Assembly (NCBI GenBank): GCA_913009735.1
Contig: CAJVYU010000007.1
Location: forward strand, 1 to 51,048
Length of the DNA: 51,048 nucleotides
Direction: 5' to 3'
DNA from: an uncultured Fidelibacterota bacterium
GTDB lineage: Bacteria; Fidelibacterota; Marinisomatia; Marinisomatales; TCS55
The translations under genes were made by a program, and so were the position numbers. Of the stretch, positions 14,072-47,666 are shown piece after piece. The notes under the pieces were generated by a model that ran no database searches, was not told the origin of the DNA, and saw only the letters and a program-made list of their open reading frames with translations. Every line of letters begins with the position of its first letter. Position 1 is the stretch's first letter.

Positions 14072-14697
14072 TGTCTTTATTAAGTAAAAAATCTACCATA
14101 GTTCTGACAGATCCATTAATGAATAATAATCCCATTACTCTCCAGGTATTGGGAATATGCTCTGCTTTAGCTGTGACGGTGAAAGTGGATACAGCAATTG
14201 TCATGACAGTCGCAGTGGTTTTTGTGCTCAGTATGTCTAACACAATCATCTCTCTTTTGAGAAATTTAATCCCGGCCAGGGTTCGAATCATAGTTATGCT
14301 GACCATCATTGCATCATTGGTGATTTTAACGGATCAAGTTTTGAGAGCATACATGTATGACATGAGTAAACAGCTCTCCGTATTTGTTGGGCTTATTATT
14401 ACCAATTGTATTGTGATGGGTCGAGCAGAAGCCTTTGCCATGCAGAATAAACCAGGTAAATCGTTTTTGGATGGACTTGGAAATGGTCTCGGTTATGGAA
14501 TCATTCTTATTGTCGTGTCAATATTTAGAGAGCTTTTGGGAAGTGGATCTCTTTATGGATTTCAGATCATTCCGTCGGCTTTTTATGAAGCCGGCTATGT
14601 AAATAATGGTTTAATGGTTCTGTCTCCGGGTGCTTTTATCATTTTGGGATTAATTATCTGGGCACAAAGAACGATTACCAATGTGGAGGAGGACTGA
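14071..14697 (+). CDS. nqrD: Na+-translocating NADH:quinone reductase subunit D
   Basis: Membrane subunit with about six helices, paralogous to NqrE. Together they enclose an iron centre in the membrane. The signature [15 protein letters not shown] contains the Cys ligand region, and [24 protein letters not shown] follows. It starts at the last base of nqrC, giving a one-base stop/start overlap. Length 208 is normal. Confidence 0.95.
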
Positions 14698-42164: not shown

Positions 42165-43004
42165 ATGGCGCTTCCACCCAATTGGCAGAATTTACACATT
42201 CCGAATTCACCGACATTTATCATGGGTATTTTGAATGTGACTCCCGATTCGTTCAGCGATGGAGGACTGTTTATTAAAACGGATGCAGCTGTGAATCGTG
42301 CATTACAAATGACAGAAGAAGGTGCTGATATTATTGACATTGGCGGTGAATCCACCCGACCGGGAGCTAAACCGGTTTCCCCGGAAGACGAATTACACAG
42401 AGTGATACCGGTAATTGAATCTATTCGAGCATATTCTGATATATGCATTTCCATTGATACATATAAAGCTGACGTGGCTGAAAAAGCCATTACTTCCGGC
42501 GCTGACATTATTAATGACATTAGCGGACTGCAGTTTGATAATCGTATGAAAGACGTAGTCTGTACTGCGGGAGTTCCTGTGATTATTATGCATATAAACG
42601 GTTCCCCCAGGGACATGCAAAAGAATCCTCACTATGATGATTTGATGCAGGAAATGGTTGTATATTTTAAGGAACGTGTGGAGTTTTGCGATCTAAATGG
42701 GATTAAAAAAGAAAATATTATTCTCGATCCGGGAATTGGTTTTGGAAAAAGACGTCAGGATAATTTTGAATTGTTGCGAGAATTAGACAAAATTACGAAT
42801 CTTGGCTTTCCAGTTTTGACAGGACCTTCGCGAAAGTCGTTTATTGGCACTACACTGGATTTGCCTACTGAAGACCGCTTGGAAGGAACCATTGCCTCTG
42901 TAACAGCATCCATTTTAAATGGAGCGAAAATTGTACGTGTGCATGATATTAAAAAAATCAAACGAGCAGTAATAATTGCAGATGAGATTCGAGGGTTAGC
43001 CTGA
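42165..43004 (+). CDS. folP: Dihydropteroate synthase
   Basis: Folate biosynthesis enzyme joining p-aminobenzoate to dihydropterin pyrophosphate; target of sulfonamides. Signatures IMGILNVTPDSFSDGG, DIGGESTRPGAKPVSPEDEL, DINDISG-type ADIINDISGL and the LDPGIGFGK and TGPSRKSFIG segments are all present. Length 279 is normal. Its stop overlaps the cdaA ATG by one base. Confidence 0.96.
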   Translation: MALPPNWQNLHIPNSPTFIMGILNVTPDSFSDGGLFIKTDAAVNRALQMTEEGADIIDIGGESTRPGAKPVSPEDELHRVIPVIESIRAYSDICISIDTYKADVAEKAITSGADIINDISGLQFDNRMKDVVCTAGVPVIIMHINGSPRDMQKNPHYDDLMQEMVVYFKERVEFCDLNGIKKENIILDPGIGFGKRRQDNFELLRELDKITNLGFPVLTGPSRKSFIGTTLDLPTEDRLEGTIASVTASILNGAKIVRVHDIKKIKRAVIIADEIRGLA

Positions 43005-43780
43005 TGGATTTATTTAATATTGGTTTTCTAAAAGTAACACTTATCGACGTCATTGACTTGGTATTAGTGAGCTGGCTGTTTTTTAAAATCTATCAGTATT
43101 TTAAAGAAACCAGGGCGGGACAAATGCTCGTTGGACTTATTATCTTACTGATTGCATCTTTTATTTTTAATGCCATCGGTTTAAGTGCATCTTCTTGGTT
43201 GGTGAATCAATTTCAGACTGTTTGGGTAGTGGCTTTTGTTATTTTATTTCAGCCGGAATTACGCAGACTGCTTATATACATGGGACAAACACGTTTTTTT
43301 CAAACCATTTTTCGCATGGGAACATCAAAGTCCATAGAAGAGTTAGTGAATGCCATTAATCAGCTCATTGAAAACAAATGGGGAGCTCTGATTATCATTC
43401 AAAGAGAGACAGGAATGCGCTCTTATAAAGAAGCAGGAACGCAACTGAAAGCCAAAGTCTCCTCCGCATTAATACAATCTATTTTTAACCCAAAATCACC
43501 TCTTCATGATGGAGCAATCATTATCCAGAATGAAATCATTGAAGCAGCCGCTTGTATTTTACCTTTAACGGAAAGCAGTATGGTTGATCCGGCTATGGGA
43601 ACTCGCCACCGTGCAGCATTGGGTATCACGGAAGAAACGGACGCTATTGCGATAGTTGTATCAGAAGAAAAACAGCGTATATCTGTTGCGGAAGACGGCC
43701 GATTCATGAATATCGGGATGGATGAAATGGAACTGCGTCGTTTTCTAAATGAACAGCTGTTCATGTCGTCCGGGGATTAA
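43004..43780 (+). CDS. cdaA: Diadenylate cyclase CdaA (c-di-AMP synthase)
   Basis: Membrane-bound diadenylate cyclase making the second messenger c-di-AMP. Three N-terminal transmembrane helices (about residues 10-80) precede a DAC domain with the active-site motifs LHDGAIII and GTRHRAALGI, followed by TDAIAIVVSEE. Length 258 is normal. Directly downstream of folP, as in many Bacteroidota; no cdaR-like gene follows. Confidence 0.93.
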   Translation: MDLFNIGFLKVTLIDVIDLVLVSWLFFKIYQYFKETRAGQMLVGLIILLIASFIFNAIGLSASSWLVNQFQTVWVVAFVILFQPELRRLLIYMGQTRFFQTIFRMGTSKSIEELVNAINQLIENKWGALIIIQRETGMRSYKEAGTQLKAKVSSALIQSIFNPKSPLHDGAIIIQNEIIEAAACILPLTESSMVDPAMGTRHRAALGITEETDAIAIVVSEEKQRISVAEDGRFMNIGMDEMELRRFLNEQLFMSSGD

Positions 43781-44541
43781 TGCAAGCCATTACCAGCGAG
43801 ACATGGCTTTACGCCTTGTTGAGCGTATTAATCGTCAGCCTTATTTCTCTGGTCGGAGTAGTTACTTTATCCTTTTCCCGCAAATTTCTGAACCGCATTA
43901 TTCTTTTTTTAGTGAGTTTTGCTGTTGGCAGTCTTTTGGGTGGTGCATTTATTCATTTACTGCCGGAAGCTTTCGCTTCTGATTTGGACACTTTAACCGT
44001 TTCCGGTTCAGTTTTGTCCGGGATCGTACTTTTCTTTGTGTTAGAAAAATTCTTGCGCTGGCGACACTGCCATCACGAAACCACGGAAGATCACGTTCAT
44101 CCGGTGGTACCCATGAATATTTTTGGCGATGCCATGCATAATTTTATTGATGGTATTCTGATTGGTGTTTCCTATGCAGTGAGTATTCCAATGGGCTTCG
44201 CAACGACTGTGGCTGTCCTGCTTCATGAAATACCCCAGGAAATTGGTGATTTCGGTATTTTGGTTCATGGCGGATTGACAGTTCGTAAAGCATTAATATT
44301 TAATTTTGCTATTTCCCTTACATCATTTATCGGTGTTGTATTGGCGCTTATGATAGGCTCATCAGTGGAAAATTTTGCACTGTATTTATTACCACTCACA
44401 GCAGGAGGTTTTATTTACATTGCCGGATCAGACCTCATACCGGAACTGCATGATAATACGGATGTGACTTCGTCCATAATTCAATTATTGGCTTTGCTAT
44501 GCGGAATTGCAATTATGTTCGGATTGACGGCTTTATTTTAA
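43780..44541 (+). CDS. ZIP-family divalent metal transporter
   Basis: Inner-membrane uptake permease for Zn2+ or related metals. The 253-residue protein has about seven or eight helices, a His-rich cytoplasmic loop (WRHCHHETTEDHVHP), and the paired metal-binding helices with NIFGDAMHNFIDGILIG and VAVLLHEIPQEIGDFGILVH. It shares one base with the cdaA stop. Metal preference cannot be read from sequence. Confidence 0.9.
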   Translation: MQAITSETWLYALLSVLIVSLISLVGVVTLSFSRKFLNRIILFLVSFAVGSLLGGAFIHLLPEAFASDLDTLTVSGSVLSGIVLFFVLEKFLRWRHCHHETTEDHVHPVVPMNIFGDAMHNFIDGILIGVSYAVSIPMGFATTVAVLLHEIPQEIGDFGILVHGGLTVRKALIFNFAISLTSFIGVVLALMIGSSVENFALYLLPLTAGGFIYIAGSDLIPELHDNTDVTSSIIQLLALLCGIAIMFGLTALF

Positions 44542-44553
44542 ATAATCTGTTGT

Positions 44554-44625
44554 ATGGATGTATATTTTGTACGGTTGCAAAGTGGAAACTTTACAGCGAC
44601 TCAAACATTACTATTGTTAAAATAG
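44554..44625 (+). pseudogene. Remnant of a T9SS C-terminal sorting domain
   Basis: In the frame of 44554 the DNA reads MDVYFVRLQSGNFTATQTLL then LLK and stop, which is the terminal strand of a type A T9SS sorting domain. A stop codon lies just upstream (44539-44541), so only about 23 codons remain. At the DNA level 44559-44586 matches 46461-46488, in the sorting domain of the next gene, at about 23 of 28 positions. Confidence 0.75.
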
Positions 44626-44637
44626 GAGTTAACTATA

Positions 44638-46527
44638 ATGAAATCAAATAAAATGTACTTCGGAATATTGACAATTCTATTTAATTCGCTATTAATTTAT
44701 GGGGCAGAGAGGGAAATTGACTGCAATTATATCATCGTTTATCCTGATAGCTTTTTAACCCAAGCCAATGAAATGGCAGATTATAGAAGCGATGCTGGAT
44801 TTGATGTATGCACTGTTTCATGGGATTCGATTTTTGCAAACAATACGTATGACACACCTGATTCGTCATTAAAAAATTATTTACAGATAGTTTGGGATTC
44901 AAGTTCTGTTCCATTGGAATATATTGTTTTATTGGGAGATTGGGACATCATTACACCTCATGCACGATTTTTTAGTTCAGATAGTTCTTATTTATTTGAT
45001 GATAATTGGTATGCTGTTTTAGATACGTCACTCTTATACTCTGAAAGACCATCTGTGGGAATTGGCAGAATCCCTGTGGAAGATGTTCTTCAATTAGAAC
45101 ATTATTTAGACAGACTTTATTTATATGAAAATGGTCTACAGATTTTACCATGGCAGCAGAGAGTTATAGGGATTTCAGGGCAAACGTATCCTGAAGAACT
45201 TCAATGCCATTTTGACAATTTATTACTCGATTATAATGAAGTTTTTATAAATCAAAACTTGGAATATGAATTTCTATCAAATTGTAATGAATCTAATTAC
45301 TCTACGGAAAATGAAAATATCAGAAATAAGTTGATTGAAGGAAATGTATTTACATTATATAACGGTCGTTCTAACAATTATCAATGGGATATAGACACTT
45401 TATTAAATTTTGAAACAGTTCGTGATTTGAATTATTGGGAATATTCCCCAATAATGATTACCGCTACAGTAAATCAGTTTGCTCGAAGGGATTCATTATC
45501 TTCGATAGCAAAAGAATTATTTATTAAAGATATACATGGACCTGTAGCCATTTATTCTTCCAGTTGGATTTTAAGTGTGTCTCAAAATAATTTATTTTTT
45601 AATTTATTGCTTGAAGATTTATTGAGTAGTGACAAACCAACAATAGGAGAATCATTATTATATTATAAGAATAGTAATATAGTAAGTCCAGGACTTATGA
45701 GGTTTGTGCAAATTTTTGGTGATCCTGCAATCATTCCTCAAATGATAAGATCGGAATCGGATATACGTGAGCCATTGCAATTTGAAATGTCTATTAATAA
45801 TGAGAACATTTTCGTATCCATATTCCCGGATCAAGATTGGAATTATGTAAAATTACCTTTGTCTAATTATTCTCATGTATTTTCTGATTCTTTAGAGAAC
45901 CTAACAATCAATCAAATTAATCTTTTCCCCGATGGAGTATTTCAAGATGTGATTTCAGGGAATATATTAATAGATGATTTGTCCATTGGAGATAGTATCA
46001 TATTTAGTTTTGATGATATAGAAAATTGGAATGTATCAAATGGAATAAACAATCTTACAATTATGCAATCTAATGATACACCAGCAGGATCAGGCAATTC
46101 ACTAATCATTGAATTTGGAAATAGTAATAATGATTCTCCAAGATCATCAGTTTATTCGACATTCGATGATTCTTCTGAAATAGGTGAAGAAGACACGATT
46201 TCTTTTTGGATTAAACAAGGAGAATCATTTGTAGGAATAGATGACATAGTGGAAACTTTACCTAAAAAATATAAACTCTATCCGGCATATCCCAATCCCT
46301 TCAATCCAACCACCACCATCCGGTTTTCAGTAGAGATGTTGCATGCAACGTCTCTACAAATATTTGATATTACCGGGCGGCTGGTGGAAACGCTTCTTGA
46401 TGAATCCCTTACTCCCGGTGATCATGAGGTTACGTGGAATGCCGGTAATTTACCAAGCGGTGTGTATTTTGTACGGCTCCAAAGCGGTGAATATGTAGAA
46501 AGTCAGAAAGTTATCTTACTGAAATAA
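44638..46527 (+). CDS. Secreted gingipain-fold (peptidase C25-like) protein with T9SS sorting domain; catalytic dyad apparently lost
   Basis: Signal peptide (residues 1-23), then a caspase-like C25 domain: YIVLLGDWDIITPH, a DNWYAVLD segment and the RPSVGIGRIPVEDVLQLEHYLDRL strand-helix. Where active gingipains have Gly-His-Gly, this protein reads YNGRSN (241-246). Where they have the Ala-Cys-Leu nucleophile, it reads ITATVNQF (274-281). Both the His and the Cys thus seem replaced. The GPVAIYSSSW and FGDPAI segments match the end of the C25 fold. Residues about 543-629 are a type A sorting domain (YPAYPNPFNPTTTIRFS ... GVYFVRLQSG). The body is AT-rich while the sorting domain is more GC-rich, suggesting a mosaic. 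Confidence 0.8.
   Translation: MKSNKMYFGILTILFNSLLIYGAEREIDCNYIIVYPDSFLTQANEMADYRSDAGFDVCTVSWDSIFANNTYDTPDSSLKNYLQIVWDSSSVPLEYIVLLGDWDIITPHARFFSSDSSYLFDDNWYAVLDTSLLYSERPSVGIGRIPVEDVLQLEHYLDRLYLYENGLQILPWQQRVIGISGQTYPEELQCHFDNLLLDYNEVFINQNLEYEFLSNCNESNYSTENENIRNKLIEGNVFTLYNGRSNNYQWDIDTLLNFETVRDLNYWEYSPIMITATVNQFARRDSLSSIAKELFIKDIHGPVAIYSSSWILSVSQNNLFFNLLLEDLLSSDKPTIGESLLYYKNSNIVSPGLMRFVQIFGDPAIIPQMIRSESDIREPLQFEMSINNENIFVSIFPDQDWNYVKLPLSNYSHVFSDSLENLTINQINLFPDGVFQDVISGNILIDDLSIGDSIIFSFDDIENWNVSNGINNLTIMQSNDTPAGSGNSLIIEFGNSNNDSPRSSVYSTFDDSSEIGEEDTISFWIKQGESFVGIDDIVETLPKKYKLYPAYPNPFNPTTTIRFSVEMLHATSLQIFDITGRLVETLLDESLTPGDHEVTWNAGNLPSGVYFVRLQSGEYVESQKVILLK
46330..46357. repeat. Palindromic element inside the T9SS sorting-domain coding region
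   Basis: A 28-base near-perfect palindrome, GTAGAGA..GTTGCA/TGCAAC..TCTCTAC, with a single mismatched pair. It is translated in frame as VEMLHATSLQ, placed between the first strand and LQIFDITG of the sorting domain. Similar GTAGAGAC...GTCTCTAC palindromes are dispersed repeats in many bacteria. Confidence 0.75.
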
Positions 46528-46570
46528 TATTCGGTAATTAACGCACCTTTTAATCGTCTTAAATTAAATC

Positions 46571-47666
46571 ATGGAATTAACAGACTTAAAAGACCTCTTC
46601 GCATCAGCAGAAACAAAACATCACGAACTTCGGAGGCATCTTTGACCTTGAGTCAAAGAAAATAGAATTAGAAAAACTCCGCCTGAAGTCCGGCACTCCG
46701 GATTTCTGGAATGACAACAAAACCGCCCAGGTAACCCTGAAAAAAATATCCCTGTTCGAAAAAGAACTCGCTCTATGGACAGATCTGGAAACACGCCACG
46801 GTGATGTGGAAGTATTACTGGAGTTTGCTGAAACCGGCGATGCAGAATTGGAGGAAGTGGCAGAGGAACTTCAATCTTATACCAAAATCATTGAAGAAGT
46901 AGAATTAAAGATGATTCTGGGCGATGAACAGGATACCCTTGACGCCATTGTGACCATTCACCCGGGAGCCGGTGGCACAGAAAGCCAAGACTGGGCGGAA
47001 ATGCTCTACCGGATGTATTCCCGATGGGTGGAGCAGAAAGATTTTAAAAAAGTATTGATGGATTATCAGTCCGGGGATGAAGCAGGGCTGAAAGATGTAA
47101 CATTTGAGGTAAAAGGGGATTATGCTTATGGTTTATTGAAAGCAGAAGCAGGTATTCATCGATTAGTTCGTATTTCACCATTCGATTCCAATAGCCGCCG
47201 CCATACGTCTTTTGCATCCGTATTTGTTTACCCCAGCATTGATGAAGAGATCGAGGTTGAAATTGATACTAACGATCTGCGAATCGACACCTATCGATCC
47301 AGCGGCGCCGGTGGACAGCACGTAAATAAAACTGATTCAGCCATTCGAATTACCCATATTCCTACGGGTATAGTGGCGCAATGCCAGAATGAGCGCTCCC
47401 AGCATAAAAATAAGGCCACAGCCATGAAAGTACTGAAAGCACGTCTTTATCAATTAGAAGTGGAAAAAGAAAAAGAAGCTGCTCAGGAATTGGAAGATAC
47501 CAAATTAGATATTGGCTGGGGGAGTCAGATTCGGTCATACGTATTTCATCCTTACAATATGGTGAAGGATCATCGTACAAAAGAAGAAACAGGAAATATT
47601 TCAGCTGTAATGGACGGTGCCCTGGATAAGTTTATTCGAGCCTATTTACTGAGCCGGTTGAATTAA
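46571..47666 (+). CDS. prfB: Peptide chain release factor 2, programmed +1 frameshift
   Basis: Class I release factor for UAA and UGA stops. Translation starts at ATG 46571; after 24 codons the frame ends at CTT TGA C (46640-46646), preceded by the Shine-Dalgarno-like GGAGG (46632-46636). This is the conserved autoregulatory site: ribosomes shift +1 and continue with GAC at 46644. The joined product (46571-46642 plus 46644-47666) is 364 residues. It contains the stop-recognition SPF (about 202-204) and the peptidyl-hydrolysis GGQ (about 247-249). Low RF2 activity favours the shift, giving autoregulation. Confidence 0.95.
46632..46646 (+). promoter_or_regulatory. RF2 programmed +1 frameshift site
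   Basis: GGAGG, then CAT, then the slippery CTT TGA C. The in-frame UGA is the RF2 stop codon, and slippage on CUU resumes reading at GAC. Spacing and sequence match the classic prfB element. Confidence 0.95.

Follow-up and report, generated by a model that had tools for sequence, protein, structure and literature searches.

An orphan sorting-domain tail and probable turnover of T9SS cargo genes between ZIP and prfB in a Candidatus Neomarinimicrobiota genome

In a Candidatus Neomarinimicrobiota genome, a T9SS cargo gene lying between the genes for a ZIP family metal transporter and PrfB is preceded by an orphan sorting-domain tail. This orphan is most plausibly what is left of an earlier T9SS cargo that stood directly after ZIP, a wreck reduced to its decayed 3′ end, and the ZIP–prfB interval is best read as a hotspot of cargo turnover. 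Relatives differ in the occupancy of this site, they carry cargo remnants, and bodies and tails have been reassorted among them. The full explanation, which joins an orphan left from an earlier cargo, a turnover hotspot, and a homology-assisted separation of bodies from tails, is reasonably probable as a whole. Dozens of cargos per genome bear this one domain, which raises the question of how unrelated bodies gain the same export tag. Loci with a constant tag and flank and a changed body, or a constant body and a changed tag, make this question testable in strain collections.

Genomes and comparison set

The window is the whole stretch of DNA that was analyzed, 51,048 nucleotides in length. 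It belongs to a 3.42-Mb MAG (G000; 91% complete, 258 contigs). Among named database relatives of its ZIP protein, the top-scoring ones are Candidatus Neomarinimicrobiota. The relatives compared comprise G001, which belongs to the same genus, and several genomes from the same family, and the ortholog search covered 61 genomes; every assembly is a MAG or draft broken into many contigs. Cargos of G000 and G001 were compared over regions of 0.87 Mb and 0.56 Mb, covering nearly all detected sorting domains. The comparison with a second genus is less complete and comprises 3-kb loci and regions of G022. A sorting-domain HMM of 94 positions was built from the tails of G000 and G001. G000 holds about 95 matches to the sorting domain of the window cargo and encodes the T9SS translocon SprA/Sov (TIGR04189, 724 bits across a 2096-aa frame). 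Three of its contig ends (L241:1-60, L218:10500-10545, and L222:5780-5818) translate as CDWSSDVCSSDL, FSLHDALPIY, and FPTRRSSDL; untrimmed Illumina adapters are suggested because these peptides are typical of adapter sequence.

The window cargo

The cargo gene starts at 44638; position 44554, with which the region originally described begins, opens the orphan ORF (Table 1). Its N-terminus (MKSNKMYFGILTILFNSLLIYGAE) looks by eye like a Sec signal peptide. Residues 31–365 are Peptidase_C25-like (Pfam E 1.6e-43), and residues 551–626 match Por_Secre_tail (TIGR04183 46.3 bits, cut-off 23; Pfam 47.2, cut-off 27). The window cargo and related products are predicted to be secreted.

Table 1. Features of the ZIP–prfB region of the window.
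Feature	Position	Strand	Basis
CdaA, preceding ZIP	43004-43780		Pfam DAC E 2.6e-42
ZIP family metal transporter, upstream syntenic flank	43780..44541	+	Pfam Zip E 4.9e-48; orthologs in 20/61 genomes searched
Orphan sorting-domain tail, 23-codon ORF (MDVYFVRLQSGNFTATQTLLLLK, then stop)	44554..44625	+	Tail HMM 73-94; DNA score 36 vs 17 shuffled
Leader GGAGTTAAC before cargo start codon	44625..44633	+	9-mer scan
T9SS cargo gene, 629 aa	44638..46527	+	Pfam, TIGRFAM matches
C25/PorU-like domain of AT-rich body	44728..45732	+	Pfam; PorU alignment; search of 60 genomes
Type A sorting domain (Por_Secre_tail)	46258..46524	+	Pfam, TIGR04183, tail HMM
28-bp GTAG...CTAC palindrome (REP-like) within sorting-domain coding DNA	46330..46357	+	Sequence
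3′ spacer	46528..46570	.	First part TAATATTCGGTAATTAAC conserved in G001
prfB, downstream syntenic flank	46571..47666	+	Sequence; PrfB orthologs

The YAGHGG and ITATCDF motifs of PorU align with YNGRSN and ITATVNQF in the window cargo (GHG to NGR, TATC to TATV), and the catalytic His and Cys of an active C25 peptidase (gingipain/PorU) are absent in this alignment. The cargo is probably not a protease because both catalytic positions differ from PorU; its C25/PorU-like domain is probably an inactive pseudoenzyme related to PorU. The body has no close relative among 60 related genomes. Its matches there are distant, mostly PorU-sized proteins with 24–28% identity.

Composition sets this gene apart. 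An AT-rich body joined to a GC-richer tail had been noted originally, and this holds for the window gene (body 30.8% GC, tail 42.7%). Its body has the lowest GC among the 72 cargo bodies of G000 (mean 41.0, sd 3.6), and the leucine-rich repeat (LRR) cargo at the same site in G001 has the lowest among 31. Bodies at ZIP–prfB have probably been acquired horizontally. The same contrast does not extend genome-wide: tails average 38.7% GC and bodies 41.0%, with the tail richer in just 19 of 72 cargos, and GC-richer tails were dropped as a general signature of swapping.

The orphan tail

The frame at 44542–44625 translates as IICCMDVYFVRLQSGNFTATQTLLLLK up to a stop codon, and the final 22 codons of the orphan ORF are the end of a T9SS type A sorting domain. 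Positions 44557–44622 match the last stretch of the sorting-domain HMM (i-Evalue 0.012), and the orphan agrees with the window cargo's own tail at 59% over 22 residues. Chance similarity is ruled out because the best local DNA score of the orphan to any tail exceeds the maximum reached in 2000 shuffles (Table 1). The HMM match and this score confirm that a second sorting-domain tail lies directly before the gene. The match of 23 in 28 bases reported between the orphan and the gene's own tail also agrees with a by-eye reading (GTATATTTTGTACGGTTGCAAAGTGG against GTGTATTTTGTACGGCTCCAAAGCGG).

Only 12 bp separate the orphan tail from the cargo gene, and the TAG stop of the orphan overlaps the ribosome-binding site of the cargo (TAGGAG). 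The leader 9-mer also precedes the unrelated LRR cargo at the same locus in G001; combined with a nearby ATG, it has no further occurrence in the 1.43 Mb scanned, where about one chance match is expected. Such tight packing would be expected if the C25 cargo had come on a fragment of a tandem array, bringing the tail end of its upstream neighbor, so that the stub was never part of a local cargo. Tandem cargos in these genomes can indeed abut, some overlapping by 4 bp and others lying up to about 9 bp apart. This origin is nevertheless unlikely, given what G001 holds at the same post-ZIP position. There, a start codon and signal-peptide-like sequence run directly after ZIP into a stop-ridden, degenerate tail end, so that the remnant is a decayed gene with its own start, signal peptide, internal deletion, and tail end. 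The sequence immediately past the ZIP stop is moreover conserved up to the break.

Loss of an earlier cargo explains the orphan tail because the corresponding remnant in G001 is a decayed gene itself. The orphan had originally been attributed to the event that brought the C25 body; with the G001 remnant in view, a separate loss suffices and that attribution is not supported.

Occupancy of the ZIP–prfB site in relatives

The gene order FolP-CdaA-ZIP-prfB is conserved in relatives, and the prfB +1 frameshift site CTT TGA (46640–46645; CGGAGGCATCTTTGAC) is also present in those read. Among 14 genomes with a readable junction, G000 included, the ZIP–prfB site is empty in 11, with about 20 bp between the genes in the three read directly. 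It is occupied in the other three: by the PorU-like C25 body in G000, by a 667-aa LRR protein in G001, and by a BNR-like body in G016 (another genus), where a separate ORF of about 190 codons precedes it. No mutual similarity was found when the C25, LRR, and BNR-like bodies were compared. Different cargo bodies at this locus in relatives had been anticipated, and the LRR and BNR-like occupants bear this out.

Remnants lie on both sides of the G001 occupant. Between the LRR cargo and prfB stands a 12-codon tail end, followed by the conserved first part of the spacer; this tail end and the spacer align with the end of the window tail. At least two earlier cargos were once present at ZIP–prfB in the genus because G001 holds two remnants. 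No ORF of at least 60 aa lies between the window cargo and prfB.

One reading of these tails, that the window and G001 tails are one resident tail with two bodies, was dropped as proof of exchange. The tail tree places the G001 tail C146_15417 between them, and the C25 tail has its positional counterpart in the G001 stub adjacent to prfB rather than in the LRR tail. Given this stub, simple exchange of a body onto a retained tail is only a possibility at ZIP–prfB.

Remnants of this kind are not confined to the site. A scan for orphan tails near intact cargos, as had been proposed, found orphan, truncated, or body-less tails away from contig ends in 11 places within the regions searched (G000: C7, C43, C48, and C77; G001: C22, C25, C47 with two, C88, C146, and C148). 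For 7 of these, an intact cargo lies no more than about 1.5 kb away. The C146 wreck consists of a signal peptide and about 35 aa fused to tail positions 47–94, beside two intact cargos, and its N-terminal part derives from a gene that is intact on C17 of G000. The search looked for tails; wrecks that have lost theirs would escape detection because remnants were sought through them. The same body and tail in all relatives, with no other orphan tails, would have spoken against the prediction; alternative cargos and further orphan tails both exist.

Reassortment of bodies and tails at other loci

Conservation is the norm: among the 93 locus pairs whose downstream flank is orthologous, 63 retain the entire available body. 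A number of loci depart from it.

At C3/C119, the tail and the EamA flank are orthologous and the bodies are unrelated. Identity is 88% over the last 30 nt of the tail and the first 110 nt of the 3′ flank, and identity at the level of orthologs begins only about 90 nt inside the tail. On the opposite side, a serpin gene is found in both genomes (in G000 on contig C94). The end of C94 (L248) overlaps C3 (L234:9818-9944) by exactly 127 nt, just before the sorting domain. Two upstream contexts thus lead into one body end, tail, and EamA gene, perhaps through strain variation; such an overlap is typical of an assembly-graph branch.

At C41/C73, identity is 77% over the last 141 aa, the TonB-receptor neighbor is conserved, and the N-terminal body is different in G001. 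The body change is derived in G001 because G002, G009, G016, and G022 share the G000 type. At its N-terminus, the new G001 body shares 55% identity with the N-terminus of a second cargo in that genome, whose upstream gene is matched at 98.7% identity by the gene piece preceding the new body.

The converse is seen at C17_38418/C125 (C17/C125 below), where the body is 77% identical in nucleotides up to tail position +74 and continues into a 44%-identical tail of another subfamily; no matching flank was found downstream. At C17_6102/C146_15417, the body is 85% identical in protein sequence, yet the tail ranks only fifth, and the second part of the G000 tail is nearer to the tail of a neighboring cargo. 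The G001 cargo L175:8415-9671 is a three-part mosaic: its N-terminal domain is new, its body is orthologous to the G000 C17 cargo, and its tail is of the ZIP–prfB type.

Alignable tails and flanks with unrelated bodies also occur at C18/G002:C5, C82/G009:C45, and window/G016, where homology begins at tail +2 to +31. At these three loci, replacement of the whole cargo by one with a related tail may also have occurred. Homology among all tails lets such replacement mimic a junction at the start of the tail. For this reason, the argument that all junctions at the tail start prove tail recombination is weakened: paralogous tails align anyway. Tail divergence in orthologous cargos was likewise rejected as a sign of conversion, as in nearly all pairs the ortholog remained the closest tail of the partner genome.

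Gain and loss of whole genes is the broadest alternative to the separation of bodies from tails. Complete cargos with their own tails would insert at favored intergenic sites, form arrays, and decay, and tails would never act as handles. Tandem cargo arrays are common, and the window remnants fit the decay of an array. The lack of positional correspondence between the LRR and C25 tails is in keeping with this alternative, as is an X-type body that several genomes carry between non-orthologous flanks, each time together with a related tail of its own. It has difficulty with C3/C119 and C41/C73, which retain tail and 3′ flank while the bodies differ, and with C17/C125, which retains the body while most of the tail differs. 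As a complete explanation, whole-gene gain and loss is possible but somewhat unlikely.

False joins of bodies to repeated tails in draft MAGs would produce similar patterns. All assemblies used are of this fragmented kind, and the C94/C3 joint is an exact overlap. Tails, however, are mostly 60–80% identical in DNA, too diverged for long shared words; the old C41/C73 body is present in five genomes; and ZIP–prfB is occupied in three separate assemblies with intact flanks. An assembly artifact is accordingly highly improbable as the source of the pattern.

A route for the separation of bodies and tails

Homology-assisted recombination is, we infer, the most likely route by which bodies and tails come apart. 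ZIP–prfB would gain and lose cargos whose bodies are AT-rich and probably of horizontal origin. In this clade, bodies and sorting domains also part when a new body joins a resident tail or a body joins another tail. On one side, conserved DNA of the tail, from the YPNPFNPTTTI stretch onward, would pair, and the opposite end would join with little or no homology. Old cargos would then decay by deletion and leave short tail stubs.

Junction positions bear on the role of the tail. Two fall within it, at about +60 to +90, immediately past the most conserved DNA (YPNPFNPTTTI). Both are tail-side junctions, mapped at C17/C125 and C3/C119 in these draft genomes. Others lie in bodies: one replacement junction is 139 nt upstream of the tail, and at C19/C137 the difference is confined to the N-terminal ~200 residues. 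The predicted exchange of bodies around sorting domains is supported at C3/C119, C41/C73, and C17/C125; recombination between tails as its general route is not supported, given the predominance of conserved bodies and the junctions in bodies. The data fit a tail that is a frequent but non-exclusive anchor for recombination helped by local homology. Tails would be the cause of the exchange, and more than its visible landmark, if this is correct.

A broader extension is conceivable, though doubtful. Recombination in Neomarinimicrobiota might use sorting domains quite generally as handles: foreign AT-rich genes would gain a resident tail by way of the conserved 5′ stretch of that tail, possibly with help from an embedded REP palindrome that a RAYT cuts, in a cassette-like manner with a constant 3′ address tag. 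If true, foreign AT-rich genes would be turned into secreted proteins by tail capture.

Relation to known systems

In the T6SS effector-immunity modules of V. cholerae, genes at fixed sites are displaced by unrelated ones and remnants accumulate; the route proposed for these arrays is homology-facilitated illegitimate recombination, in which one junction is homologous and the other illegitimate (Kirchberger 2017, PMC5361080). Fixed-site replacement by unrelated genes is likewise seen here, and remnants of earlier occupants adjoin the current gene in the window and G001. The differences are that whole immunity genes are retained there, with a presumed benefit, whereas here the remnants are decayed stubs; that no immunity gene is found here; and that what stays constant is an export tag at the C-terminus.

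Rhs/CdiA polymorphic toxins have a shared delivery part that recombines with variable parts, with orphan tips nearby (PMC3482391, PMC3150448). A shared delivery part, variable parts, and orphan fragments close by are common to both systems. Theirs is a constant N-terminus with a variable C-terminal toxin and immunity gene, whereas here the C-terminus is constant, the bodies are not recognizable toxins, and no immunity genes were seen. Cargo turnover here thus resembles gene displacement of a kind already known, with a constant C-terminal export tag at the opposite end from that in toxin-gene swapping.

As a type A cargo (TIGR04183/PF18962), the window gene has a sorting domain that exceeds the curated cut-off, and the genome encodes SprA. 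The literature found on such cargos treats the sorting domain as an export signal. Within a partial coverage of the literature, no paper was found on sorting domains as recombination sites or on body exchange around them.

The GTAG palindrome and the REP-associated transposase

Many sorting domains carry a REP-like GTAG palindrome, in frame and at the same fixed position. Among orthologous and paralogous tails, the arms of the palindrome vary with compensating changes. The exact form GTAGN7GCATGCN7CTAC occurs 7 times in the whole G000 genome: 5 copies are in sorting domains at one site, and 2 are in or beside a REP-associated transposase (RAYT) gene (C44:13614-14135; NF047646 E 9.5e-10, below the curated cut-off). 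The GTAG-ended copies match those at this gene, as for the GTAG REP of a RAYT. Further REP-like palindromes are at L249:13909-13942 and 14252-14279.

GTAG REPs inside genes are known (PMC3733652), and Rickettsia palindromic elements are cited in the same paper. Both resemble the present case: a GTAG-ended palindrome, a REP-associated transposase with matching copies, and a location in coding sequence. Copies here differ from GTAG REPs in being concentrated at one site of one protein domain instead of dispersed.

This distribution invites the idea that the palindrome is a cut site at which a Y1 transposase mobilizes or breaks cargos, and the C17/C125 junction (+74) coincides with the palindrome site. 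Exchange driven in this way is very unlikely, as the bodies of C3/C119 and C41/C73 have changed in tails without a palindrome and the window stub begins well downstream of the palindrome position. The palindrome may be a passenger because two of the clearest body changes have tails that lack it. An integron-like site was also rejected, there being no cassette boundary at the palindrome.

At L254:2287-2607 and onward, the next gene after a T9SS cargo encodes a Y1-type transposase. Behind this transposase comes a tandem array of the 20-bp unit CGATTGAGCATTGACACAGT, which resembles the inverted repeats flanking the transposase.
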